The notes below the pieces were generated by a model. It did not search any database. It was not told where the DNA came from and saw only the letters and a list, made by a program, of their open reading frames with translations. A program made the translations under genes and the position numbers. Positions 20,759-41,472 of a stretch of DNA of 41,472 nucleotides are shown here, piece by piece. The stretch covers positions 1-41,472 of the forward strand of contig PYER01000025.1 in the NCBI GenBank assembly GCA_003017855.1. The letters run 5' to 3'. Each line of letters begins with the position of its first letter. The stretch's first letter is position 1. The stretch comes from a filamentous cyanobacterium CCT1 (GTDB lineage Bacteria > Cyanobacteriota > Cyanobacteriia > Phormidesmidales > Phormidesmidaceae).

Positions 20759-23700
20759 ATGGGGATGAAAATGAGGATGAGTTCGTCGATCAATCATCTT
20801 ATTGATCTGCCTAACAAGCTACCGCTGCGAGTCGTCCTCATTGTGCCTCTGATGCTGCTACTGACGGGGGCCGTTGGAGTTGTCGGTTATCTTTCATTCA
20901 GAAATGGCCAGCGGGCGGTCAATCAAGTTGCGACCGAACTCCAAAACGAGATTCTCCATCAGATTACGGACAAGTTGGACGATTACGTTCAGGTGGCGCA
21001 CGACATCAATCGTTTGAATGCGATCGCACTGGCCAAAGGAGACATTAACCCAGACAGCGCCGCCGGAGAGACGGTGTTCTGGCAGCAAAATCAGATTTTC
21101 CCGACGGCGAGTTTCGTTTACTGTGGCAACGAAAAGGGAAATCTGGTGGGCGTGGGCAAGATGACCAATAAAGTTCACCTGCAAACCTGGGTTGTGAATG
21201 ACTCCACAAACCGTATCCCTTACTTTTACGGCCTGGACGATCAGGGCAATCGCAATCGCGAATTTGACAAAGGTGCCGAGCCGTTTGATGCTCGCGTTCG
21301 CCCCTGGTATAAAGCGGCAAAGGAAGCGCGTCAGCCCACCTGGAGTCCAATTTATTTGGGATTCACGACCCACTGGCCTGCGATCGCCACCAGCATCCCC
21401 GTCTACGATTCTAGTGGTAGAACGTTGATCGGAGCCTGCGGCATTGACTTTTTGCTGCCTCAGGAAATGAGCCAGTTCTTGAAGAGTTTAAATATTGGCA
21501 AAACTGGCAGCGCATTCATCATCGAGCGTTCAGGAACGTTGGTCTCCACGTCTACGGCTGAGCCTATTGTTGAGAATACAAGCGGCGATAGCGAGCGATT
21601 GTTGGCCAATCAAAGCAGTAATTCAACAATCCGGGCAACGGCTGACTTTTTGGCACAGCGTTTTGATGGCTTTGATCAGATTCAAGTGGCGCAGCGACTG
21701 GTGTTTGATATGGACGGGGCACGACAGTTTGTGCAGGTTGTGCCCTTCCAGGATCGCTACGGGCTAGACTGGCTGATTGTGATCATGCTTCCAGAAGCAG
21801 ACTATCTGGGACAAATTCAGTCAAATATTCGAGATACGCTGCTGCTATGCTTTTTGGCGTTAGTGGCAGCGCTTATTTTGAGTGTGTTAACGGCTCGCTG
21901 GATTACCAGACCGCTGCTGAGCTTGAATCAATCGGCGCAGGCGATCGCCGATGGTCAATGGAATCAAACGGTCAACATTAAGCGATCCGATGAACTGGGA
22001 AAACTGGCAAACTCCTTTAACCAAATGGCCCATCAGCTGCAAACGGCCTTTTTGGAACTACAGACCCTGACCCAAAACCTGGCTGAAAATGAAACCCGCC
22101 TCCGAGCCTTTTTGGAATCGCTGCCCATTAGCATTTCCATTTTGGATGCGACAGGCCACCCCTACTATGCGAATCAGCGGAGATTTCAGATGCTGGGGGA
22201 AGCCATTGATCCGACGGTTTCTTGCGATCATCTGGCCGAAGTCTATCACCTGTACAGGGCGGGCACGAATCAGCTCTATCCGAATGACCAACTGCCCATT
22301 ATCCAGGCGTTGAACGGTAAGCATACCCGAGTTGACGATATCGAAATCCACCAAAACGGTCAAACTATTCCCATTGAAGTCTGGGGAACCCCCATCTTTG
22401 ATGAACAGGGAAAGGTGGCCTATGCGATCGCTACCTTTCAGGACATTACAGAGCGCAAACAAGCCGAGAAACTCCTAGCCGACTACAACTGCACTTTAGA
22501 GCAACAGGTCGCAGAACGAACTGCTGCCTTACAACGCAGTGAAGCCAAGTTCCGAGCTATCTTTGAAAACTCGCAGATCGGCATCTTCCAAGTCCGCATC
22601 CCGGATGGATTAATTCTTGATGCCAATCAACGCTTTGCCAATCTGTATGGCTTTGACTCACCAGAGGCGATGATTGGGCTTGAACGAACCAGAAGCTACT
22701 ATGTAAATCCCAGCGAGCGCCAACAGTTCCTTGAGTTGCTGAAGCGAGATAAGGAAGTGCGAAGTTATGAAGTCCAAATGCGAAAACGAGATGGGACAGT
22801 ATTCTGGGGACAGTTCTCTTCGTATCTGAATGCAGCTAATGGATACATCGAAGGCGTGCTTGTGGATATTAGCGATCGCAAACAAGCAGAGGAGGCATTA
22901 CAACGCAGTGAAGCCAAGTTCCGAACGATCTTTGAAAACTCGCAGGTTGGCATCTACCGCACTCGCCTCTGTGATGGATTAGTTCTCGAAGCCAATCAAC
23001 GCTTTGCCGATCTGTTTGGCTTTGATGCACCAGAAGAGATGGTTGGGTTGGTGCACACCACAAGCTACTACGTCAATCCCAACGTTCGCCAACAAGCCAT
23101 TGAGGTGATGAGGCGAGACGGGGAAGTGCGAAGCTTTGAAGTCCAGATACGAAAACGAGATGGGACATTGTTTTGGGGACTTTTCACTTCTTATCTGAAC
23201 GCAGGTGATGACTATATCGAAGGGGTGATTGCGGATATTAGCGATCGCAAACAAGTAGAGGAGGCACTACAACGCAGTGAAGCCAAGTTCCGTAATATCT
23301 TTGAAAACTCACAGGTCGGCATCTTCCGAAACCGCATCTCAGATGGATTAATTCTCAATGCCAACCAACGCCTTGCTAACCTGTTGGGCTTTGATTCACC
23401 CGAGGAGATCATTGGGCTAGGGCATAGCATCGACTATTTTGTAAACCCTAGCGATCGCGAACACGCCCGTGAGGTGATGAAGCGGGATGGGGAACTGCGA
23501 AGCTTTGAAGCACAGTTGCGAAAACGAGATGGGACACTGTTCTGGGGACTTACCTCTTCTTATCTGAATGCAGCCGATGGATATGTCGAAGGGGTGATTG
23601 CGGATATTAGCGATCGCAAGCAAGCAGAAGCAGCCCTACAAGTTTCAGAGTCAAAGCTGCGGACTTTAATTGAGGCAATTCCCGATCCATTGTTTGTATT

Positions 23701-24604
23701 CTCTGCTGAAGGGCGATTCCTTGAAATAATGGTACTGGAACCAGATCTGCTATGGTACCCCTTTGAGGAGATGATTGGTAAAACTATGCATCAACTCGGA
23801 AGGGAAGAAGCTGATGTGTTTCTAGGTTATATTCAGCAGGTACTGAGAACCCAACAAATCCTCACGGTCGAGTATGGTGCGTTTCTAAATGGACGAGAAA
23901 TGTGGTTTTCGGCTCGCATTGCCCCAATCAGCCACGATCAGGTGATTTGGCTGGTGCGAGATATTACGGCGCAGAAGCAAGCAGAAGAAGCGTCAATTTT
24001 AGAGGAGCGCAACCGCATGGCACGCGAAATTCACGACACACTCGCTCAGTCGTTTACAGGCATTTTGGCTCAGGTAGGAGCCGCAAACCAGGTACTAACG
24101 GATGATGTAGAAGCAACTCAGGCACATCTAGACCTGATCAAAGAATTGGCGCGAACCGGACTATCTGAAGCACGGCGATCGGTCGTAGCGCTCCGTCCTC
24201 AGCTTTTAGAGGAAGGCAGTTTACAGAGCGCTCTCCATCGTCTCGTCGCTCAGACTAGATCTGCCGCCATGGATACCACTCTACATTATGAGATTGAGGG
24301 TGCAGTGTATTCTCTACCCACTGAAGTCGAGAGTAACCTACTGCGGATGGGGCAGGAAGCCTTAACCAATGCAATTAGACACGCCAATGCTGACGAAATT
24401 CGAGTGGAGCTAATCTACGAGCCTGATCAGTTTTTGTTGCGCGTGAAAGATAATGGACAGGGCTTTGGAGTTGGCAGTATTCCATCCTCTGAAGGTTTTG
24501 GCTTACTCGGCATGAGCGAACGGGCAGAGCGCATCGGCGCACAACTCACGATTAGGAGTCAACCTGGGCAAGGAACAGAAATTATTGTCACCGTCAACCC
24601 TTGA
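20759..24604 (+). CDS. Multi-PAS sensor histidine kinase (dCache-HAMP-PAS-HisKA_3)
   Basis: The 1281-residue membrane kinase has TM1 at ~23-45, an extracytoplasmic dCache ligand domain to ~355 (FDARVRPWYKAAKEA, GACGIDFLLPQ), TM2 at ~360-381 and HAMP ~384-432. Five PAS domains follow: ~445-570, three near-identical tandem units (591-713, 714-836, 837-959), and 960-1076. The kinase part is NarL-type (HisKA_3), with His1092 in AREIHDTLAQS and an HATPase domain (NAIRHANA, DNGQGFG, GLLGMSERAERIGAQL). It should sense a small ligand outside and redox or small molecules through PAS, then phosphorylate the adjacent regulator. Its stop directly abuts the GTG of the regulator gene. Confidence 0.93.
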   Translation: MGMKMRMSSSINHLIDLPNKLPLRVVLIVPLMLLLTGAVGVVGYLSFRNGQRAVNQVATELQNEILHQITDKLDDYVQVAHDINRLNAIALAKGDINPDSAAGETVFWQQNQIFPTASFVYCGNEKGNLVGVGKMTNKVHLQTWVVNDSTNRIPYFYGLDDQGNRNREFDKGAEPFDARVRPWYKAAKEARQPTWSPIYLGFTTHWPAIATSIPVYDSSGRTLIGACGIDFLLPQEMSQFLKSLNIGKTGSAFIIERSGTLVSTSTAEPIVENTSGDSERLLANQSSNSTIRATADFLAQRFDGFDQIQVAQRLVFDMDGARQFVQVVPFQDRYGLDWLIVIMLPEADYLGQIQSNIRDTLLLCFLALVAALILSVLTARWITRPLLSLNQSAQAIADGQWNQTVNIKRSDELGKLANSFNQMAHQLQTAFLELQTLTQNLAENETRLRAFLESLPISISILDATGHPYYANQRRFQMLGEAIDPTVSCDHLAEVYHLYRAGTNQLYPNDQLPIIQALNGKHTRVDDIEIHQNGQTIPIEVWGTPIFDEQGKVAYAIATFQDITERKQAEKLLADYNCTLEQQVAERTAALQRSEAKFRAIFENSQIGIFQVRIPDGLILDANQRFANLYGFDSPEAMIGLERTRSYYVNPSERQQFLELLKRDKEVRSYEVQMRKRDGTVFWGQFSSYLNAANGYIEGVLVDISDRKQAEEALQRSEAKFRTIFENSQVGIYRTRLCDGLVLEANQRFADLFGFDAPEEMVGLVHTTSYYVNPNVRQQAIEVMRRDGEVRSFEVQIRKRDGTLFWGLFTSYLNAGDDYIEGVIADISDRKQVEEALQRSEAKFRNIFENSQVGIFRNRISDGLILNANQRLANLLGFDSPEEIIGLGHSIDYFVNPSDREHAREVMKRDGELRSFEAQLRKRDGTLFWGLTSSYLNAADGYVEGVIADISDRKQAEAALQVSESKLRTLIEAIPDPLFVFSAEGRFLEIMVLEPDLLWYPFEEMIGKTMHQLGREEADVFLGYIQQVLRTQQILTVEYGAFLNGREMWFSARIAPISHDQVIWLVRDITAQKQAEEASILEERNRMAREIHDTLAQSFTGILAQVGAANQVLTDDVEATQAHLDLIKELARTGLSEARRSVVALRPQLLEEGSLQSALHRLVAQTRSAAMDTTLHYEIEGAVYSLPTEVESNLLRMGQEALTNAIRHANADEIRVELIYEPDQFLLRVKDNGQGFGVGSIPSSEGFGLLGMSERAERIGAQLTIRSQPGQGTEIIVTVNP
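22529..23635 (+). repeat. Three 369-bp tandem PAS-encoding units
   Basis: Units start at 22529, 22898 and 23267, exactly 369 bp (123 codons) apart. Each begins LQRSEAKFR.IFENSQ and ends DISDRKQ.E.A. The identical length and long identical DNA blocks show internal duplication within the kinase gene. The loops that would contact a ligand differ between units. Confidence 0.85.
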
Positions 24605-25246
24605 GTGAGCATCACGATGAGCCAAGCCACGACCATTCGGGTTCTGATTGCGGACGATCACGCCATTTTTCGGCAAGGATTAGCCACGATTATCAACCAT
24701 GACCCAGAGATGCAGGTGATTGCCCAAGCCGAAAATGGGGAACAGGCGATCGCTCTGTTTGGGGAACACCAACCGGATGTCACACTCATGGATTTACGCA
24801 TGCCGGAAGTGGAAGGGGTTGCCGCCATCGGTGCAATTTGTGCGACGGCTAAATCTGCTCGGATTATTGTCCTGACCACGTATGATAGTGACGAGGATAT
24901 TTACCGGGGATTGCAGGCAGGCGCAAAAGGGTACCTGTTGAAAGAAACTGAACCGGACGAGCTTCTGAATGCCATTCGTACTGTTCATCGGGGGCAGAAG
25001 TATATTCCGCCCGATGTGGGGGCAAAGTTAGTTCAACGGCTCAGCAATCCAGAACTGAGTGAACGGGAAATGGCGGTACTCCGCTCACTGGCACAGGGGA
25101 TGAGTAATGCCGATATTGCGACCGCTTTAACTATCGGTGAAGGCACGGTTAAATCCCATGTCAATCGGATTTTGAATAAGCTGGATGTCAGCGATCGCAC
25201 CCAAGCTGTGATTGTTGCCGTTAAGCGCGGCATTGTCAGTTTATAG
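24605..25246 (+). CDS. NarL/FixJ-type response regulator
   Basis: The 213-residue protein has a receiver domain with acidic pair Asp17/Asp18 (IADDHAIFRQG), phospho-acceptor Asp63 (LMDLRMP), Thr91 and Lys113 (YLLKETEPDEL). A LuxR-type HTH follows: LSEREMAVLRSLAQGMSNAD, then TVKSHVNRILNKLDVSDRTQ. It is the partner of the upstream kinase. GTG 24605 is immediately after the kinase stop; ATG 24617 is an equally possible start. Inverted-repeat copy B begins directly after its stop codon, so its terminator or target promoter may lie there. Confidence 0.92.
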   Translation: MSITMSQATTIRVLIADDHAIFRQGLATIINHDPEMQVIAQAENGEQAIALFGEHQPDVTLMDLRMPEVEGVAAIGAICATAKSARIIVLTTYDSDEDIYRGLQAGAKGYLLKETEPDELLNAIRTVHRGQKYIPPDVGAKLVQRLSNPELSEREMAVLRSLAQGMSNADIATALTIGEGTVKSHVNRILNKLDVSDRTQAVIVAVKRGIVSL

Positions 25247-34245: not shown

Positions 34246-34462
34246 TGTACAGTGACTTACTCTTTGTCATTGGGACAAATTAGTGTCGCCGGTCTGAATG
34301 CCTTTTATTTTGAGCCGTTTCGAGTATTTTGACAGGTATTTTGGCTCTCTCCAGGGGCTGTGAATACGGGACACATAGACTGTCGCCTTCCGTAAAAGTG
34401 CCACACTGCTTGTCGGCTTTCTTCAAAGCTAAAACTGAGCAAATGACAGAATGAGTGTCGCT
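34246..34462 (+). mobile_element. Left end of a type V-K CAST-like (Tn7-like) transposon
   Basis: The end begins TGTACAGTGAC, as I recall for type V-K CAST left ends such as that of Scytonema hofmanni. Related 19-20-bp repeats follow: GGGACAAATTAGTGTCGCC (34272-34290), GGGACACATAGACTGTCGCC (34368-34387), GTGCCACACTGCTTGTCGGC (34398-34417) and ATGACAGAATGAGTGTCGCT (34443-34462). They resemble multiple TnsB binding sites. tnsB begins shortly after. The five bases before the end (GCTGA) would be the target duplication, but the right end is outside the window. Confidence 0.75.
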
Positions 34463-34702
34463 CTCTGCTCAAATAGCGTACAATGCGCATGAACTACTCG
34501 TTCCACTGATCGCAACGATTGAAGTGGGTGAGGGTTAGTTGGCTTTTTGGCTTAGAGGGCTAGCTCAATGGTGTTAGATGTATCTCAAAAGAATTTGGAT
34601 CAGCCAATAGAAGAGGTGCTTTCTGCTTAGAGAGACCCTAATCAATCGGAAGGAATCACGATTGTTGAGCAGCTAGACGAAGAGGGCCAGCGCAAGCTGG
34701 AG

Positions 34703-36100
34703 GTGATTCAGTCGTTGCTAGAGCCATGCGATCGCGCCACCTATGGCGAAAAGCTTCGAGAAGCGGCTGACAAATTAAGCTGCACTGTCCGAACAGTACA
34801 GCGGCTAGTTAAGCGGTGGGAAGTAGAAGGGGTTTCAGCCTTTGCGACCTCCGGTAGAGCTGACCAGGGTAAGCATCGAATTTCCGAGTTCTGGCAAGAC
34901 TTTATTGTTAAGACCTACGAGGCAGGCAACAAGGGCAGTAAGCGCATGAAGCCGAAGCAAGTTGCCGTCAGGGTGCAGGTTAAAGCGCGTGAGATAGGGG
35001 ATAGTAACCCTCCTAGCTACAAAACCGTGCTGCGGGTGCTCAAGCCCATTATTGAGCGTAAGGAAAAGGCCAAAAGCATTCGCAGCCCAGGATGGAGGGG
35101 CTCAACCCTGTCGGTTAAGACTCGTGAGGGGCAAGATCTTGCAGTCGAGTACAGCAACCATGTGTGGCAGTGCGACCACACTCGTGCCGATGTGATGCTG
35201 GTTGACCAGTATGGTGAGATTTTGGGACGACCTTGGCTGACAACCGTTATCGACACCTACTCGCGTTGTGTTATGGGCATCAACCTCGGGTTTGATGCGC
35301 CTAGCTCTCAGGTGGTGGCCCTGGCCCTGCGCCGTGCTATTTTGCCGAAAAAATACGGGCCAGAGTACAAGCTCAACTGTGAGTGGGGTACGTTCGGCAA
35401 GCCTGTCCATTTCTACACTGACGGGGGTAAAGACTTTCGCTCTAACCACCTCCAACGCATTGGGGCGGATTTGGGGTTTGCTTGCCACTTACGCGATCGC
35501 CCTTCGGAGGGCGGCGTCGTAGAACGGCCTTTTCGCTCGTTGAATGACCAGTTGTTTTCAACCTTACCTGGATATACCGGGTCCAATGTTCAGGAGCGGC
35601 CCAAAGATACCGAGAAAGATGCCAGTCTCACCCTGAGGGATTTAGAGCACCTGATTGTGCGGTTTATCTGTGACCAATATAATCAGACACTTGATGCCCG
35701 CATGGGTGACCAGACTCGCTTTCAGCGCTGGGAAGCAGGGTTGCCAAAGGTGCCGGAGATGATCGAAGAGAAGCACTTGGACGTGTGCCTCATGAAAGAA
35801 GGCCGTCGCACGGTACAGCGGAGTAGGCACCTGCAATTTGAGAATTTGATCTATCGGGGAGAGAACTTGGTTGGGTATGCCGGTGAGGTGGTTTCTATTC
35901 GGTTTGACCCTGACGACATCACCATGGTACGGGTCTATCGTAAGGAGGGGATAGGAGAGGTCTTTCTAACCCGTGCCTATGCCCAAGGACTAGAGACTGA
36001 GCAGATCTCCTACGAAGAGGCCAAGGCAAGTAGTAAGCGCTTAAAGGCTAAGGGCAGAACAGTCAGCAACGAGTCAATTTTGCAAGAAATAGTTGAGTGA
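34703..36100 (+). CDS. tnsB: TnsB-like DDE transposase of a type V-K CAST (interrupted)
   Basis: The open part from GTG 34703 codes 465 residues. An N-terminal HTH (EKLREAADKLSCTVRTVQRL) leads to an RNase-H core with Asp158 (WQCDHTRAD), Asp240 (FYTDGGKDF) and Glu274 (GGVVERPFRSLN), and a Mu-type C-terminal barrel. Long stretches match what I recall of Scytonema TnsB (VIQSLLEPCDR, CDHTR, RDRPSEGGVVERPF). It cuts and joins transposon ends. Homology also covers 34568-34702 from ATG 34568, interrupted by TAG at 34628-34630, and 36101-36292 beyond TGA 36098-36100. So the gene is probably a damaged ~574-codon tnsB. tnsC follows at once. Confidence 0.88.
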   Translation: MIQSLLEPCDRATYGEKLREAADKLSCTVRTVQRLVKRWEVEGVSAFATSGRADQGKHRISEFWQDFIVKTYEAGNKGSKRMKPKQVAVRVQVKAREIGDSNPPSYKTVLRVLKPIIERKEKAKSIRSPGWRGSTLSVKTREGQDLAVEYSNHVWQCDHTRADVMLVDQYGEILGRPWLTTVIDTYSRCVMGINLGFDAPSSQVVALALRRAILPKKYGPEYKLNCEWGTFGKPVHFYTDGGKDFRSNHLQRIGADLGFACHLRDRPSEGGVVERPFRSLNDQLFSTLPGYTGSNVQERPKDTEKDASLTLRDLEHLIVRFICDQYNQTLDARMGDQTRFQRWEAGLPKVPEMIEEKHLDVCLMKEGRRTVQRSRHLQFENLIYRGENLVGYAGEVVSIRFDPDDITMVRVYRKEGIGEVFLTRAYAQGLETEQISYEEAKASSKRLKAKGRTVSNESILQEIVE

Positions 36101-36292
36101 GATGCCTTGGTTGCCAAGAAAAGCCAGAAGCAGCGCCAGAAGGACGAGCAGGTGCTGGCAAAACCCACAATGGTTTCTGATCCAGAGCCGATTGAAGCAA
36201 ATTTAGACCAGGAGGAGCCTAAGGATGAGGTTGCCCTGAACTTAGATGCCTTTGAGCCGATTGATTTTGATGATATTCGGGGAGCTTGGTGA
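36101..36292 (+). pseudogene. Detached TnsB C-terminal tail
   Basis: Directly after the TGA at 36098-36100 the same frame continues DALVAKKSQKQRQKDEQ, an acidic linker, and ends FDDIRGAW at TGA 36290-36292. It matches the end of V-K TnsB proteins (RDALVATKKSRKERQK recalled for Scytonema), where the last residues bind TnsC. A CGA-to-TGA change explains the stop. Without readthrough the transposase lacks this TnsC-contact hook; TTG 36107 could start it separately. Confidence 0.65.
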
Positions 36293-36294
36293 GC

Positions 36295-37137
36295 ATGGTA
36301 CAAGCAAAGGCGTGGGCTGAGGCTCTGGGTGAATCTAAGCCTGATGCGGCATCCCTCCAGGCCGAAATAGCCCGCTTACGGAAGAAAATGGTTTTACCGC
36401 TGGACCACGTTAGCAAGCTCCATGATTGGCTGAATGGGAAGCGAAAGGCGCGACAATCTTGTCGCATTGTTGGGCAGTCTAGAACAGGCAAATCAAGTGC
36501 CTGTGAGGCGTATTTTTACCGGAATAAGCCTACCCAAAAAACTGGTAAGAAGCCAATCGTCCCAGTTGTCTACATCCAGCCACCGCAGAAGTGTGGCTCC
36601 AGGGAGCTATTTAAGGAGATCATTGAATTTCTTAAGTACCGGGTGACCGAGGGGACAGTCTCAGATTTCCGAGGACGGGCCTTTGAGGTGCTGAAGGGTT
36701 GTGAGGTGGAGATGATTATCATCGATGAAGCTGATCGCCTCAAGCCAGAAACCTTTGCTGATGTGAGGGATTTCTACGACAAGCTGGCAATTTCGGTGGT
36801 GCTAGTGGGCACTGACCGGCTGGATACAGTGATTCAGCGCGATGAGCAGGTGTATAACCGCTTCCGGGCCTGCTACCGTTTTGGCAAGCTGATTGATGAT
36901 GATTCCACTAAAGATTTCACCAATGCAATTAAGATCTGGGAGCAAAAGGTTTTGGCGCTGCCAGTGGCATCAAACTTGACCAGTAAACCAATGCGAACAA
37001 TCCTCCTGGAGGCGACAGAGGGGTACATTGGCCGGATGGATGAGGTGTTGCGGGAGGCGGCGATTCGTGCCTTAAGTCAAGGGCTGAAGAAGATTGAGAA
37101 GTCGGTGCTAAAAGAGGTGGCTAGGGAGTACAAGTGA
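36295..37137 (+). CDS. tnsC: TnsC-like AAA+ ATPase of a type V-K CAST
   Basis: The 280-residue protein is close in length to V-K TnsC. Walker A is seen as VGQSRTGKSSA, Walker B as MIIIDEADRLKPETFADV, sensor 1 as VVLVGTDRLD. The N-terminal AEIARLRKKM and HDWLNGKRKARQSCR segments are family features. It forms ATP-dependent filaments on target DNA and connects the targeting module with TnsB. ATG 36295 is three bases past the TnsB tail's stop. The gene looks intact, and its stop overlaps the tniQ start region (TGATG at 37135-37139). Confidence 0.9.
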   Translation: MVQAKAWAEALGESKPDAASLQAEIARLRKKMVLPLDHVSKLHDWLNGKRKARQSCRIVGQSRTGKSSACEAYFYRNKPTQKTGKKPIVPVVYIQPPQKCGSRELFKEIIEFLKYRVTEGTVSDFRGRAFEVLKGCEVEMIIIDEADRLKPETFADVRDFYDKLAISVVLVGTDRLDTVIQRDEQVYNRFRACYRFGKLIDDDSTKDFTNAIKIWEQKVLALPVASNLTSKPMRTILLEATEGYIGRMDEVLREAAIRALSQGLKKIEKSVLKEVAREYK

Positions 37138-37639
37138 TGGTGAATGCTGGTATTCAGCCCTGGTTGTTCGAGGTGAAACCCTACGAGGGCGAGAGCCTGA
37201 GCCATTATTTGGGGCGGTTTAGGCGGCGCAACCATCTGACGGCAGGCGGACTAGGAACGATGGCTGGTATTGGGGCGGTGGTGGCCCGTTGGGAGAAGTT
37301 TCATTTGAACCCTTCCCCGACTCAGGCGCAGTTTAAGGCGTTAGGGGGGGGCTGGGGCTCTCTCCAGAGCGGTTGTGGGGGATGCTGCCGCCTTCGGGAG
37401 AAGGGATGCAGTTTGAGCCGATTCGGCTGTGTGGAGCCTATTATGGTGAGAACCTCTGCCACCGGATTGAGTGGCAGTACAAGTCGGTGTGGAAGTGCGA
37501 TCGCCACAACCTGAAACTGCTTTCTAAATGCCCTAGCTGCGAAGCCAAGTTCAAAATCCCAGCGCTCTGGGAGGATGGCTGCTGTGGCCGTTGTAGAACC
37601 CCATTGGCCGAGTTGGTTCGATATCAACGATCTGCTTAA
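37134..37639 (+). pseudogene. tniQ: TniQ of a type V-K CAST, frameshifted in a G8 run
   Basis: The frame from GTG 37134 (or ATG 37137) reads IQPWLFEVKPYEGESLSHYL, then GRFRRRNHLTAGGLG, the TniQ opening. After TTA at 37341-37343 comes a run of eight Gs (37344-37351); the frame then goes wrong. A minus-one shift restores LGLSPERLWGMLPPSGEG, the zinc-ribbon part (CHRIEWQYKSVWKCDRH, CPSCEAKF, GCCGRC) and the stop at 37637-37639. Joined, it would be about 167 residues, the normal size for V-K TniQ. TniQ bridges TnsC and the guide complex. One lost G or programmed slippage on the G run are the options. Confidence 0.85.
37344..37351 (+). other. G8 homopolymer at the tniQ frameshift
   Basis: The eight Gs are read GGG GGG GG(C) in the first frame. 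A minus-one slip within the run, either ribosomal (G-GGG-GGG heptamer) or by RNA polymerase, would yield full-length TniQ. Homopolymer indels are also a common sequencing error. Confidence 0.6.
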
Positions 37640-40600
37640 AAAGACCCTACTACTGCCAGTATTTCCTCAAACAGGGGGTCTCCCCAGAGCAGCAGCCGTA
37701 AAGATGGTATCTCTTCAAAGACTTTTGGCTTAAAGGTTACTCGGCAAGTTTGCCTTTTATAATCCAGTTCCCAGACACCCTGATTTGACTGGGTAAAATA
37801 AATTCCTTTTTCTTTAAGAAGGTTTGACTGCGTGAATGCCGCCTCCACAGTCTCCATGCTGATTGCAGAGGGAGACAGGGGTCGCCGAATCTCCTGAAGG
37901 TCGGCTTCCACATCACGTTTCACCATGTCATCGAGGGCGGGGCGCTGGTGTGGAGCCGATAGGACGGTATCGAACTCAGAGAGCAGCACGTCTTCTTCTT
38001 CGGCATCGACGCTCATGGTGGCCCGTTCGATGAAAGTGGGCACCTGGGCCAGGATGGGCTGAAGGTTGCCGACGACAGATTCAAAGGCCCCAATGCGATC
38101 GCGCAATTTCCGGTACACTTTCGCTTCCACCGTACCGTCGTAGTAGAAGTTGTGGATAGTGACAGTGGGATATCGCTGGCCAATCCGGTCAATACGGCCA
38201 ATGCGCTGCTCCACTCGCATGGGGTTCCAGGGCAGGTCGTAGTTAAATAGCACCCCGCAGGTTTGCAGGTTGAGTCCCTCGCTAGCAGATTCCGTACAGA
38301 GCAGGATTTTGATTTCACCGTCGCGGAACCGGGTTTTGATCAGCTCCTTAGGTACGATCGCCCACTGGCCATCGCGCCACAGTTCGCCGCCGCGCCCGGA
38401 GTAGCAGGCCACCTGGTTGCCGTAGAGTTCCCGCAGCTGCTCGCGCAGAAAGTCCATGGTGTCGGTGTACTGGGTGAAGGCGATCGCGCTTTCCCGGTTC
38501 ACCAACTCCTGCCGCAGGGTGGCGATGAAGTGGGCCAGCTTGGTGTCTTCTCCAGTATTCTCAAACTGCCGCAGCAGAGCTTCTAGGTGCTCAATTTCCT
38601 GGGGGTCTACGGGCTCCAGGTAGCCCTCTAGCCCTTCGATCACCGCATCATCGGCATCGTCCAGATCCGCCAGGTCATCGGCGGTGAGGCCGCTGCCCTG
38701 CTGGGTGAGCAGGGAGTCGAGCCGCCGCTGGAGGGATTGCTGAATGGCGTAGAAGGAGCTGGTCAACCGCTTGCGGTATAGGGTCATCAAGAATCCCAGG
38801 GCTTTGCGCTGCTCCTTTTGGGCCAGGCGGTAGAAGTGGCGCACGTAGTCGCTGACTTGGCGGTAGAGGTCGGCTTCGCGGGTGGGCTCTAGGGTAATGG
38901 CGTTGTCGCACACCTCACGGCGGGGCACGTCCTTTTCCAGCAGGCCGAGGCGGTAGTACTCCCGTAGGGTGTCCCGTGTGTGGCGAAACATCATGTCTTT
39001 GAGGGGTGTGTTGGTGGAGAGGAATTGGAGAGAGGCGGCGATAAAGGCCTCGTCTTGCAGGTAGGGGCGCTCGTTGATGATTTTGATGCGGCCTCGCCAT
39101 ACATCTTCGACTTGACTGGCCAGCATTCGGTCTTGCTGATTGAGGTGCTGCTGGAGCCGAGGGCAGGGCTGGCCGCCACGGGCAAAGTAGTCGGCAGACA
39201 TCGTTTGCCAAAAGTTAAGCAAGTGGCGATCGGGTTTGCTGTCCAGCGATGAGAAATAGTCGCAGAAGGTATCGCCGTAGGCCCAGTGGCCCTCTAGCCC
39301 CAGCACATGCAGCAGGTCAAAGACTTCGATGGGGTCAATTTGCATCGGGGTGGCCGAGAGCAAAATCAGCGCTTTGGTTTTGTCGCGCAGCTGCTCCAGC
39401 AGTTGCAGCAGGCGGTTGGGGGTGTCTTTGCGGGCCTGGGGCGATTTGCGGCGGGCATGGTGGGCCTCGTCGAGAATGACCAAATCCCAAGGTTTGGCAT
39501 CGAGCAGTTCTTGCATGCGCTCGCGGCGGCGCACCAGGTGGCTAGAGGCGAGGATGAGGTTTTGGGTATTCCAGGGGTTGCCGGTGGGCTGGGTGGTGTG
39601 GCCGTAAGGAGCTTTGAATTCGCCCTGGGTGTAGCTCCAGAAGTGGAGGTTGAACTTTTCACGCAGTTCTTCGTGCCACTGGGGTTGGACGCTGGCGGGG
39701 GCCAGCACGAGGACACGCTTGACCGTTTGGGAGACCAGCAGATAGCGGAGGATCAGCCCGGTCTCGATGGTTTTGCCCAGGCCCACTTCATCGGCGATCA
39801 GGAAACTGCGGGGAAATTCAGCGGCGGCGCGTTTGAGGATTTTGATCTGGTGGGGCCAAGGCTGGATGGGGATGGAGCTGAGGCAAGCGCTGAGGCAGCC
39901 GAGGTCTTGGTGGACGTTGGCGATCGCCCGAAACATCTCCCGTTCCTTATCCAGAGTGGCCTCATCGATCTGGGCCTCTAGCTCTTCTTCCTTAGCAAGC
40001 TCTGGGTCAGGGATGGCTAACTGTTCTCGCTCATGCTTGGTGAGGGGGCGCTGGTTAAATTCGTCGTCGGTATTCCAGGTCGGCTTTTGGGGTGGGGCGT
40101 AGCGGATCAGCTTGCGCTTGACGGCTTCGGGCACCTCAAAGACGCGGACGCTGGGGATTTGGTTGTGCCAGTGCTGCTCGAAGCGCAGGGTTTCTTCCTG
40201 CACGCGGGCCAGGTCGCGATCGCCCTCCCAGGAGCAGAAGACATGGAACGATTCGACGTTGAAGTTCCAGCCGCCGCTGGACTCGTTGTTGGAGCCGGTG
40301 GTGGCAATTTGGTTGCCGTCGGCGTCGGTGAAGAGGCAGACTTTCTCGTGATAGATGTAGTGGGTGTTGATAGCCTCGTCGGGGTCGAGGGGTTGTCCGT
40401 CGTGGCGCAGGGGGATGGCGATGCGGATATCGAGGCGATCGCTCTGAATCAGCCAGCTAAGGATTTCGAGGCGCTTGAGCTGTGCAAAGTTGGTGGGTGG
40501 GGTAAGGTTGGCATCGAGGCGGGCGGCGACGGCCTCGCGGAGGGTATAGCCCTGCTGGATGGCCTGGAGGTCGGTTTTACTGAGGTGGCAGCTCATGATC

Positions 40601-40815
40601 AGCCGGATGCGGCCCTCGTTGTGGAGGAAGGCTCCCAGCCCTCCGGCGACCTGGCTGAGGATGGCGCTGTTGAAGAAGCCGGACTTGCGATCGTATTGGG
40701 TGGAGCGTTCGAGGGCGGGGATGTAGAAGTCGGCGACGGGGTTGCTGGTGTCGCTGGCGTAGCTGATGCGCCAGGGGTAGTCAGATAAGGTAGGAATAGG
40801 CTTAAATTTACTCAC
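37636..40815 (-). CDS. PLD-domain SNF2/DEAD-like helicase (probable defence cargo)
   Basis: The 1059-residue protein has an N-terminal PLD-like region (RIRLIMSCHLS; YHEKVCLF near residue 155 followed by TTGSNNESSGG). A SNF2/RapA-like helicase follows: IADEVGLGKTIETG (~343), LDEAHHARR (~451), LLSATPMQ, SASEGLNLQ and RIGRIDRIGQR (~875). PLD and SNF2 parts are shared by several phage-defence helicases such as those of DISARM-like systems, but I cannot assign a named system. It is convergent with tniQ, the stops overlapping by four bases. It would move as transposon cargo. ATG 40815 has an AGAGAGG-like site. Confidence 0.85.
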   Translation of the reverse strand: MSKFKPIPTLSDYPWRISYASDTSNPVADFYIPALERSTQYDRKSGFFNSAILSQVAGGLGAFLHNEGRIRLIMSCHLSKTDLQAIQQGYTLREAVAARLDANLTPPTNFAQLKRLEILSWLIQSDRLDIRIAIPLRHDGQPLDPDEAINTHYIYHEKVCLFTDADGNQIATTGSNNESSGGWNFNVESFHVFCSWEGDRDLARVQEETLRFEQHWHNQIPSVRVFEVPEAVKRKLIRYAPPQKPTWNTDDEFNQRPLTKHEREQLAIPDPELAKEEELEAQIDEATLDKEREMFRAIANVHQDLGCLSACLSSIPIQPWPHQIKILKRAAAEFPRSFLIADEVGLGKTIETGLILRYLLVSQTVKRVLVLAPASVQPQWHEELREKFNLHFWSYTQGEFKAPYGHTTQPTGNPWNTQNLILASSHLVRRRERMQELLDAKPWDLVILDEAHHARRKSPQARKDTPNRLLQLLEQLRDKTKALILLSATPMQIDPIEVFDLLHVLGLEGHWAYGDTFCDYFSSLDSKPDRHLLNFWQTMSADYFARGGQPCPRLQQHLNQQDRMLASQVEDVWRGRIKIINERPYLQDEAFIAASLQFLSTNTPLKDMMFRHTRDTLREYYRLGLLEKDVPRREVCDNAITLEPTREADLYRQVSDYVRHFYRLAQKEQRKALGFLMTLYRKRLTSSFYAIQQSLQRRLDSLLTQQGSGLTADDLADLDDADDAVIEGLEGYLEPVDPQEIEHLEALLRQFENTGEDTKLAHFIATLRQELVNRESAIAFTQYTDTMDFLREQLRELYGNQVACYSGRGGELWRDGQWAIVPKELIKTRFRDGEIKILLCTESASEGLNLQTCGVLFNYDLPWNPMRVEQRIGRIDRIGQRYPTVTIHNFYYDGTVEAKVYRKLRDRIGAFESVVGNLQPILAQVPTFIERATMSVDAEEEDVLLSEFDTVLSAPHQRPALDDMVKRDVEADLQEIRRPLSPSAISMETVEAAFTQSNLLKEKGIYFTQSNQGVWELDYKRQTCRVTFKPKVFEEIPSLRLLLWGDPLFEEILAVVGSF

Positions 40816-40828
40816 TCTATGCCTCTCT

Positions 40829-41398
40829 CTAAAGAGAATCTTTCAGGCGGATATGCAATTCTTTAACCATTGGGTTGTTATCATGCGGGGTTTCTCGAAT
40901 TCCAAATATATTTGTTGAACGAATTAATTCACCTAGCTTTTTATATCCATAGTTTCTAGAATCAAAAGATGGAGATAGTTTATTCAATTGTGCCCCAAAA
41001 CTTCCTAGGTTGGCCCACCCATCTTCTCCAGATACAGCTTCATAGGCTTTCTTTAAAAGTCTGATAAGTGGTTCTTTATTTGCTGTGTCTTTGTCGATCA
41101 ATTTGTCAGCTTCTGAATCAAGTTTTTTTGAATTTTGTGTTTTCTTAGTGCTGTTTGAGTGCTCTAGAATTTCAAGGTATATAAATTTGTCGCAGGCACT
41201 AACAAAGGGGTCAGGTGTTTTTTCCTCGCCAAATCCATAAAACACTAAGCCTGCTTCTCGAAGGCGACCAGCTAGGCGGGTAAAATCACTATCGCTAGAT
41301 ACAAGACAAAATCCATCAAAATTACCTGTGTAGAGCAAATCCATTGCGTCAATGATTAAAGCACTATCAGTAGAGTCTGGAGTTTGTTCAAATAGGGT
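40829..41398 (-). pseudogene. NYN-domain protein with OST-HTH, 5'-truncated
   Basis: Reading back from 41398 the frame gives TLFEQTPDSTDSALIIDAMD, then LLYTGNFDGFCLVSSDSDFT. This is the second half of a LabA/DUF88-like NYN nuclease domain, with the Asp residues of DSTDSALIIDAMD and SSDSDF. A charged linker follows, then an OST-HTH/LOTUS RNA-binding domain (IRLLKKAYEAVSGEDGWANL, YGYKKLGELI). The normal N-terminal ~60 residues are missing; homology ends at about 41400 next to a probable insertion. Translation could still begin at ATG 41344 (171 residues). It lies 13 bp upstream of the helicase on the same strand. Confidence 0.65.
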
Positions 41399-41404
41399 GA
41401 GCCA

Positions 41405-41472
41405 AAGCTAGGAAAGTGGTAGTGACGTGAAATTGCAAAGCACTACCACCTATGAGCACCCATCTTGAAACG
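41405..41472 (+). mobile_element. Probable start of an insertion element (runs off right edge)
   Basis: After the truncated NYN gene comes GGTAGTG (41418-41424) with its complement CACTACC further on, and then ATGAGCACCCATCTTGAAAC at 41452 opening a frame to the window edge (MSTHLET). The break in NYN homology and the inverted repeat suggest an IS end and its transposase start. Family not identifiable from so little sequence. Confidence 0.3.

Follow-up and report, generated by a model that had tools for sequence, protein, structure and literature searches.

The 1059-amino-acid (aa) helicase encoded at positions 37636 to 40815 (minus strand) of the window, i.e., of the whole 41472-bp contig C290 of the source genome G000, a filamentous cyanobacterium, is best read as the effector that cleaves DNA in a restriction-modification-like system of four genes, related to bacteriophage exclusion (BREX) and located on the cargo side of a type V-K CRISPR-associated transposon (CAST) that is in decay. 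We give this reading a probability of about 0.78. The gene set and gene order in relatives, the intact catalytic motifs, the hypervariability of the accompanying methyltransferase (MTase), and the linkage to CASTs form its sequence-based part, from which we infer the mode of action. A helicase-nuclease that was poorly characterized before would thereby find its place in a defined restriction-like system. The initial annotation had proposed that the helicase and a small NYN-OST-HTH gene directly upstream constitute an uncharacterized anti-phage module; the helicase is indeed a defense-type gene and belongs to a real module, but the members of that module are others than NYN.

The description of the helicase as a fusion of a PLD-like domain with an SNF2 motor was borne out by the open reading frame (ORF), by its domains and motifs, and by structure prediction. 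Pfam matched SNF2 and Helicase_C domains and missed the N-terminal domain, while the PADLOC profiles PbeA and PLD_Helicase indicate a PLD/HKD N terminus. This nuclease-like domain covers residues 1 to 250 approximately (40066 to 40815, minus strand) and contains the motif H156xK158-D164-G174-N177-E178 (40282 to 40350, minus strand), whose six named residues are invariant in an alignment of 45 sequences including that of the window. The SNF2 ATPase (residues ~309 to 925; 38041 to 39891, minus strand) carries the motifs DEVGLGKT, DEAHH, and QRIGRIDR, which are invariant among six aligned sequences, and the closest solved relative of this motor by sequence is RapA. AlphaFold2 modeled residues 1 to 310 with a predicted local distance difference test (pLDDT) score of 87.9, and a fold search with this model placed it among PLD-type restriction enzymes: the best matches in the PDB were SauUSI and then the NgoAVII R protein, followed at lower ranks by BfiI and numerous further enzymes of the PLD superfamily. 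There were 29 matches at E ≤ 0.001, with template modeling (TM) scores by query length of only 0.30 to 0.39; when PDB sequences were instead searched with a profile of the HKD domain, there was no match at E ≤ 0.01. The helicases of 12 other loci from the same genus are 87 to 95% identical to that of the window; mean identity within the genus is 0.91 and drops to 0.44 to 0.60 only in the last 63 residues. The 1059-aa helicase is real, and its catalytic motifs are intact.

Its partners were recognized in relatives. In a set of 57 genomes (G000 and 56 relatives, G000 being included in all counts), the helicase was found in 17 (E ≤ 1e-80), a DUF499 ATPase in 16 (E ≤ 1e-60), a DUF7680 protein in 16 (E ≤ 0.001), and a DUF1156 MTase in 14 (E ≤ 1e-60), and each of the 14 genomes with the MTase also has the other three genes. 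The gene order in the relatives, whose helicase neighborhoods were represented by 18 stretches from 16 genomes, is DUF499 ATPase, DUF7680, a first variable slot, DUF1156 MTase, a second variable slot, and the helicase last; DUF7680 directly follows DUF499, and the order DUF499-MTase-helicase on one strand was present in all 12 loci of relatives in which the upstream sequence was long enough. A second, database set comprised 80 helicase loci taken from GTDB contigs, 27 of which hold less than 4.9 kb upstream of the helicase. Among the 53 loci that pass this bar, which was set by us, the MTase lies upstream of the helicase in 51 (17/19 cyanobacterial and 34/34 other loci), a figure that still counts L106, L107, and L110, although L106 to L110 look like four genomes of the first set; with the bar at 4.3 kb, it is 54 of 58, L121, L132, and L145 being added with the MTase and L112 and L129 without it. 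The helicase is therefore not the lone housekeeping gene that the initial annotation had considered as a counter-explanation. The MTase matches the profiles HmaB and DUF1156_MTase and the DUF499 protein matches HmaC; the MTase of L041 was recognized by Pfam as DUF1156 (E = 1.9e-8), and the MTases of the genus contain the motif DPPYY. By these matches, the relatives hold the core that is characteristic of DUF499-centered BREX-related (BR) and Hma systems, i.e., a DUF499 ATPase, a DUF1156-type N6-MTase, and an SNF2-type helicase.

The fourth gene, DUF7680 (PF24728), is small, e.g., L111:4044-4472 and L144:6657-7088, and represents a conserved component of the system. Of 10 genes scanned from outside the cyanobacteria, 9 were recognized as DUF7680, a proportion that is not a frequency, the 10 candidates having been chosen by size and place from 44 genes of 28 loci. 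Its AlphaFold2 model reached a pLDDT of 90.1 and had no PDB match at E ≤ 0.001 in the fold search. DUF3780, the family that Type-2 BR systems have in this place, was found in 5 of the 57 genomes, which were the scope of this search; among the 14 genomes with a complete system, only G002 has it, on another contig. We considered whether DUF7680 is a diverged DUF3780 and did not adopt this idea: hhalign aligned the two with a probability of 3% (E = 0.014), the weak C-terminal pattern is only suggestive, and kinship is unproven. With respect to G002 (L039, L040, and L225), parts of two system copies lie on several contigs, a separate 1025-aa gene overlaps the DUF3780 gene, and two kinds of BR system may coexist in this genome. 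Relatives of the system are carried by the plasmids pAQ6 of Picosynechococcus sp. PCC 7002 and pLBX of Leptolyngbya boryana, both of which by annotation encode DUF499, DUF1156, and helicase proteins, and a 142-aa gene whose size and place fit DUF7680. With these two plasmids, it should become possible to test the defense function, what DUF7680 does, and the idea of guards discussed below.

The MTase shows a pronounced contrast between its center and its flanks. In ten MTases of the same genus, mean pairwise identity is 0.96 to 0.99 in residues 51 to 200 and 751 to 950 and 0.23 to 0.46 in residues 251 to 550, the hypervariable region lying between the motifs DAFAGGG (139) and DPPYY (550). According to the main text of PMC12839542, the target-recognition insert of BR MTases is part of the MTase core and follows strand 2, and the variable region agrees roughly with this site. 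A hypervariable center is as expected from specificity switching in restriction-modification systems, and such switching may have occurred here. A 1255-aa MTase homologue (L042, G032) has PPQSPFERGE-type repeats and a DUF559-type nuclease-like stretch inserted near its center, as seen by eye. In the mechanism that we propose, the MTase would mark self DNA at a site that its variable region determines; the DUF499 ATPase, together with DUF7680, would scan DNA and recruit the helicase to unmarked invader DNA; and the SNF2 motor would translocate, with cleavage falling to the HKD domain. Between MTase and helicase there is a passenger slot for small modules, some of which are RNase-type toxins or nucleases.

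The window holds a CAST-like end, tnsB-tnsC-tniQ, and the helicase, and the cas12k side lies off the contig. The probable left end, TGTACAGTGACTTACTC..., spans 34246 to 34330 (plus strand; inner limit approximate) and is recognized by the end sequence TGTACAGTGAC at 34246, which G017 also has on the far side of its cas12k. The end otherwise resembles those of V-K CASTs, and no target duplication was shown. The genes tnsB (34568 to 36292) and tnsC (36286 to 37137), both on the plus strand, match V-K CAST profiles, and tniQ occupies 37134 to 37639 (plus strand). With two in-frame stops in tnsB (34628 to 34630 and 36098 to 36100) and a frameshift in tniQ, the transposon is clearly decaying, as judged from its reading frames. 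The helicase had been placed at the cargo position behind tniQ, overlapping its stop; the cargo side and a 4-bp overlap hold, but the two genes lie on opposite strands and meet with their 3′ ends, and the overlap therefore represents convergence and not translational coupling.

A more complete arrangement is present on a single contig of G019, with cas12k (252265-254121), DUF499 (257575-260136), MTase (264639-267479), helicase (271980-275126), and tniQ/tnsC/tnsB (~286424-289505). The whole system thus lies between cas12k and the tns genes, i.e., in cargo order, accompanied by CRISPR-like repeats (by eye); an end, ...AACAGTACA, adjoins tRNA-Gly, and the left end of this CAST was not found. In G017, cas12k and a CAST end, TGTACAGTGACAC, lie beyond DUF499. 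In G004, the system is complete, and a stump left by deletion in tnsB-tnsC-tniQ meets it tail to tail, at the same junction as in the window. G000 and G019 are the only genomes in which V-K TnsC (E ≤ 1e-20) shares a contig with the helicase. A V-K CAST, i.e., an RNA-guided transposon, can by this gene order carry a whole restriction-like system, but for most of the copies sampled no such element is visible. G000 itself has three Cas12k genes, on C365, C262, and C149 (L050, L051, and L049, respectively). On C365 there are CRISPR-like repeats beside tRNA-Pro, on C262 tniQ abuts cas12k, and on C149 a different SNF2 helicase of 963 aa (L049:4979-7870) lies near cas12k.

The distance between MTase and helicase, measured from the ends of the matches and with L106 to L110 removed from the lists, is below 200 bp in 24 of 40 non-cyanobacterial loci (median, 167 bp) and 1.3 to 5.4 kb in 12 other loci of the same genus. 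Where this second slot is fully visible, it is filled by nine different gene sets in 12 same-genus loci, none of them with NYN. The collected slot-2 set omits non-cyanobacterial loci with gaps of ≤250 bp and contains 108 ORFs, which are mechanical calls (≥60 aa in one listing, ≥70 aa in the Pfam scan) and some of which are perhaps not genes. Pfam recognized PIN in 7 of them, HigB and Uma2 in 4 each, HEPN in 2, and PemK/MazF and TumE in 1 each, so that RNase-type toxins make up approximately 15 of the 108, which is frequent and not a majority. Annotated toxin genes likewise lie between MTase and helicase on pAQ6 and pLBX, and DarTG-type genes occur in slot 1 of several loci. In two genomes (L031 and L035), slot 2 is filled by a three-gene cassette of a UvrD-like helicase, a 336-aa protein, and a RecQ-like protein matching DpdF/PsyrT, which may be a defense system of its own. 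Slot 2 is, on this comparison of gene contents, an exchangeable passenger site, and the NYN-OST-HTH gene is taken to be the passenger of G000, now broken.

The NYN ORF (40829 to 41344 from its first ATG, 171 aa) lies on the same strand as the helicase, 13 bp upstream, and coding continues in frame to 41374 before the repeat edge. Its presence just upstream and its domains, as initially annotated, are real, but the gene is a truncated remnant: the Pfam NYN match spans only positions 86 to 145 of 145 (OST-HTH was also matched), and seven of the eight NYN relatives read extend ~78 residues beyond the window copy and carry the motif LIDADN there, the eighth, L208, also being called short. The window gene lacks ~78 N-terminal residues including LIDADN. 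The missing 5′ half was not found in the 6.85 Mb of G000 that were searched, where the sole match was a 52%-identical paralogue on C25. A repeat end at 41377 to 41472 (minus strand) truncates the gene and closes the contig, and the genes truly upstream are out of view because the contig ends there. The repeat recurs in at least 14 other places in 13 contigs of G000, all at contig ends (40 of 111 candidates scored), and eight copies that were compared are identical up to ...CAAACTCCAG / ...TTTGAACAAACTCCAG and diverge beyond. It is the edge of a dispersed element, probably an insertion sequence, whose body did not turn up in the fetched stretches; by eye, the repeat end may form a hairpin, GTGGTAGTG...CACTACCAC. 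NYN-OST-HTH relatives are present in 16 of the 57 genomes. NYN nucleases are part of the PIN-like fold group, and the gene therefore fits as one more RNase-type passenger and not as a fixed partner.

That NYN-OST-HTH and helicase form a dedicated two-gene anti-phage module is consequently very improbable. Their close spacing on one strand speaks for it, and an RNase-type gene adjoining the helicase does recur, e.g., the PIN protein that is the last slot ORF in L033 and L111 and the annotated VapC-type PIN protein next to the helicase on pLBX of Leptolyngbya boryana. The recurrence of the pair itself, which the initial annotation had named as a check, was not observed: there was no NYN match in any of the 80 GTDB helicase loci (E ≤ 1e-3; upstream sequence of less than 4.9 kb in 27 of them), tblastn with the NYN fragment returned the window only and nothing in the 18 helicase stretches of the relatives (E ≤ 1e-5), and the Pfam scan of the 108 MTase-helicase ORFs, with the window NYN as first member, revealed no second one. 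The 25 of 59 slot-2 ORF families that were listed include all with at least two members, and the NYN family is therefore a single-member family of the window. In five other genomes that hold both genes (G008, G015, G017, G025, and G029), these are on different contigs, the helicase is not among the neighbors in the eight NYN stretches read, and the window copy has lost its LIDADN part. The module was hence rejected and is largely refuted, and the case cautions that a gene pair at a broken contig end may be misread as functional partners. Even less credence is due to a housekeeping, RapA-like transcription helicase, for which the sequence relationship of the motor to RapA could be cited; its patchy spread (17/57 genomes), the HKD domain, the MTase linkage, and the mobile setting refute such a role. 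A helicase acting alone as a SauUSI-like, ATP-dependent nuclease, perhaps on modified DNA, and selected without the MTase is unlikely, but less so: SauUSI is the best fold match of its N terminus, all motifs are intact although the partners were not found in G000, and four loci (see below) show no MTase. Against it stand the 51 of 53 loci with an MTase and the fact that only G000, the degraded G029, and the divergent G021 of the 17 helicase genomes are without a matching one.

Several observations weigh against the helicase being the effector of a CAST-borne four-gene system. The MTase (E ≤ 1e-60 as well as E ≤ 1e-10), DUF499 (E ≤ 1e-60), and DUF7680 (E ≤ 0.001) were not found in the fragmented genome G000; L113 and L127 among the 53 loci, and L112 and L129 just below the 4.9-kb bar, have no MTase; and the right end of the window CAST was not found. 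The Cas12k contig C365 was rejected as its other half, the flank beside tRNA-Pro differing by eye from the bases before the left end. Finally, no CAST genes lie beside the system in the stretches examined of 11 of the 14 complete-system genomes, and CAST carriage is therefore occasional. Only the helicase being seen in G000, the window copy is probably non-functional unless the remaining genes lie in unassembled sequence. The organism might then have a complete system, the assembly lacking a single sequence that carries both the missing genes and the 5′ half of NYN. This is a real possibility, though we lean against it: the assembly has 546 contigs, is 96.76% complete, and breaks here at a dispersed repeat, and the loss of one neighboring contig would also explain the missing NYN 5′ half, but DUF499, DUF7680, the MTase, and this half were not found in the 6.85 Mb, and the transposon is in decay.

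Backup effectors have been proposed for BREX and BR systems in general (main text of PMC12839542). A further scenario is a DUF7680-marked BR subtype that occurs in cyanobacteria, Proteobacteria, and Acidobacteria and that V-K CASTs sometimes move as a whole. Its two exchangeable slots might hold RNase toxins (PIN, HigB, HEPN, MazF; DarTG in slot 1; once NYN) as guards, which would kill the cell or arrest it upon inhibition or loss of the core, and the recognition region of its MTase might be swapped to alter specificity; as a whole, this scenario is speculative, and we would not favor it at present. Outside the CAST, the window encodes a 1281-aa dCache-HAMP-multi-PAS sensor kinase directly followed by a LuxR-type response regulator (20759 to 25246).

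Among known systems, Type-2 BR systems are the nearest. As described in the main text of PMC12839542, they have in common with the system presented here the DUF499 ATPase, the DUF1156 N6-MTase with a target-recognition insert, and a helicase with an N-terminal HKD nuclease, present in place of TUDOR, as well as auxiliary nucleases and RNases adjoining the core. DUF3780 occurs in 98% of Type-2 taxa according to the same text, whereas DUF7680 takes its place here; neither DUF7680 nor NYN is mentioned in that main text, and its supplements, which were outside our scope, may mention them. The Hma system (HmaABC) of PADLOC, as far as it is described in the relevant part of PMC8565338, shares the helicase-methylase-ATPase trio, with partial profile matches to HmaA, HmaB, and HmaC; here, in contrast, the helicase begins with an HKD domain, and DUF7680 is a fourth conserved gene. 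PLD_Helicase and the phospholipase D-like anti-phage protein NF042964 align partially, over the motor, but the helicase scores 367.8 bits against a curated cutoff of 1100 and is not the same equivalog. Tn7-like transposons, including those of cyanobacteria, are known to carry defense systems such as BREX (Benler 2021; PMC8649781, main text); DUF1156 is not mentioned in this main text, and a CAST with a DUF499 system may already have been noted elsewhere. SauUSI, NgoAVII, and BfiI have the HKD nuclease fold in common with the window helicase. SauUSI is a lone gene, whereas the helicase described here usually travels with an MTase and an ATPase. Like the SNF2-type helicase here, SauUSI is ATP dependent (PDB title; PMC7913695, in part). 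By its gene content, the system is therefore of a known, BREX-related kind, with DUF7680 in place of DUF3780.

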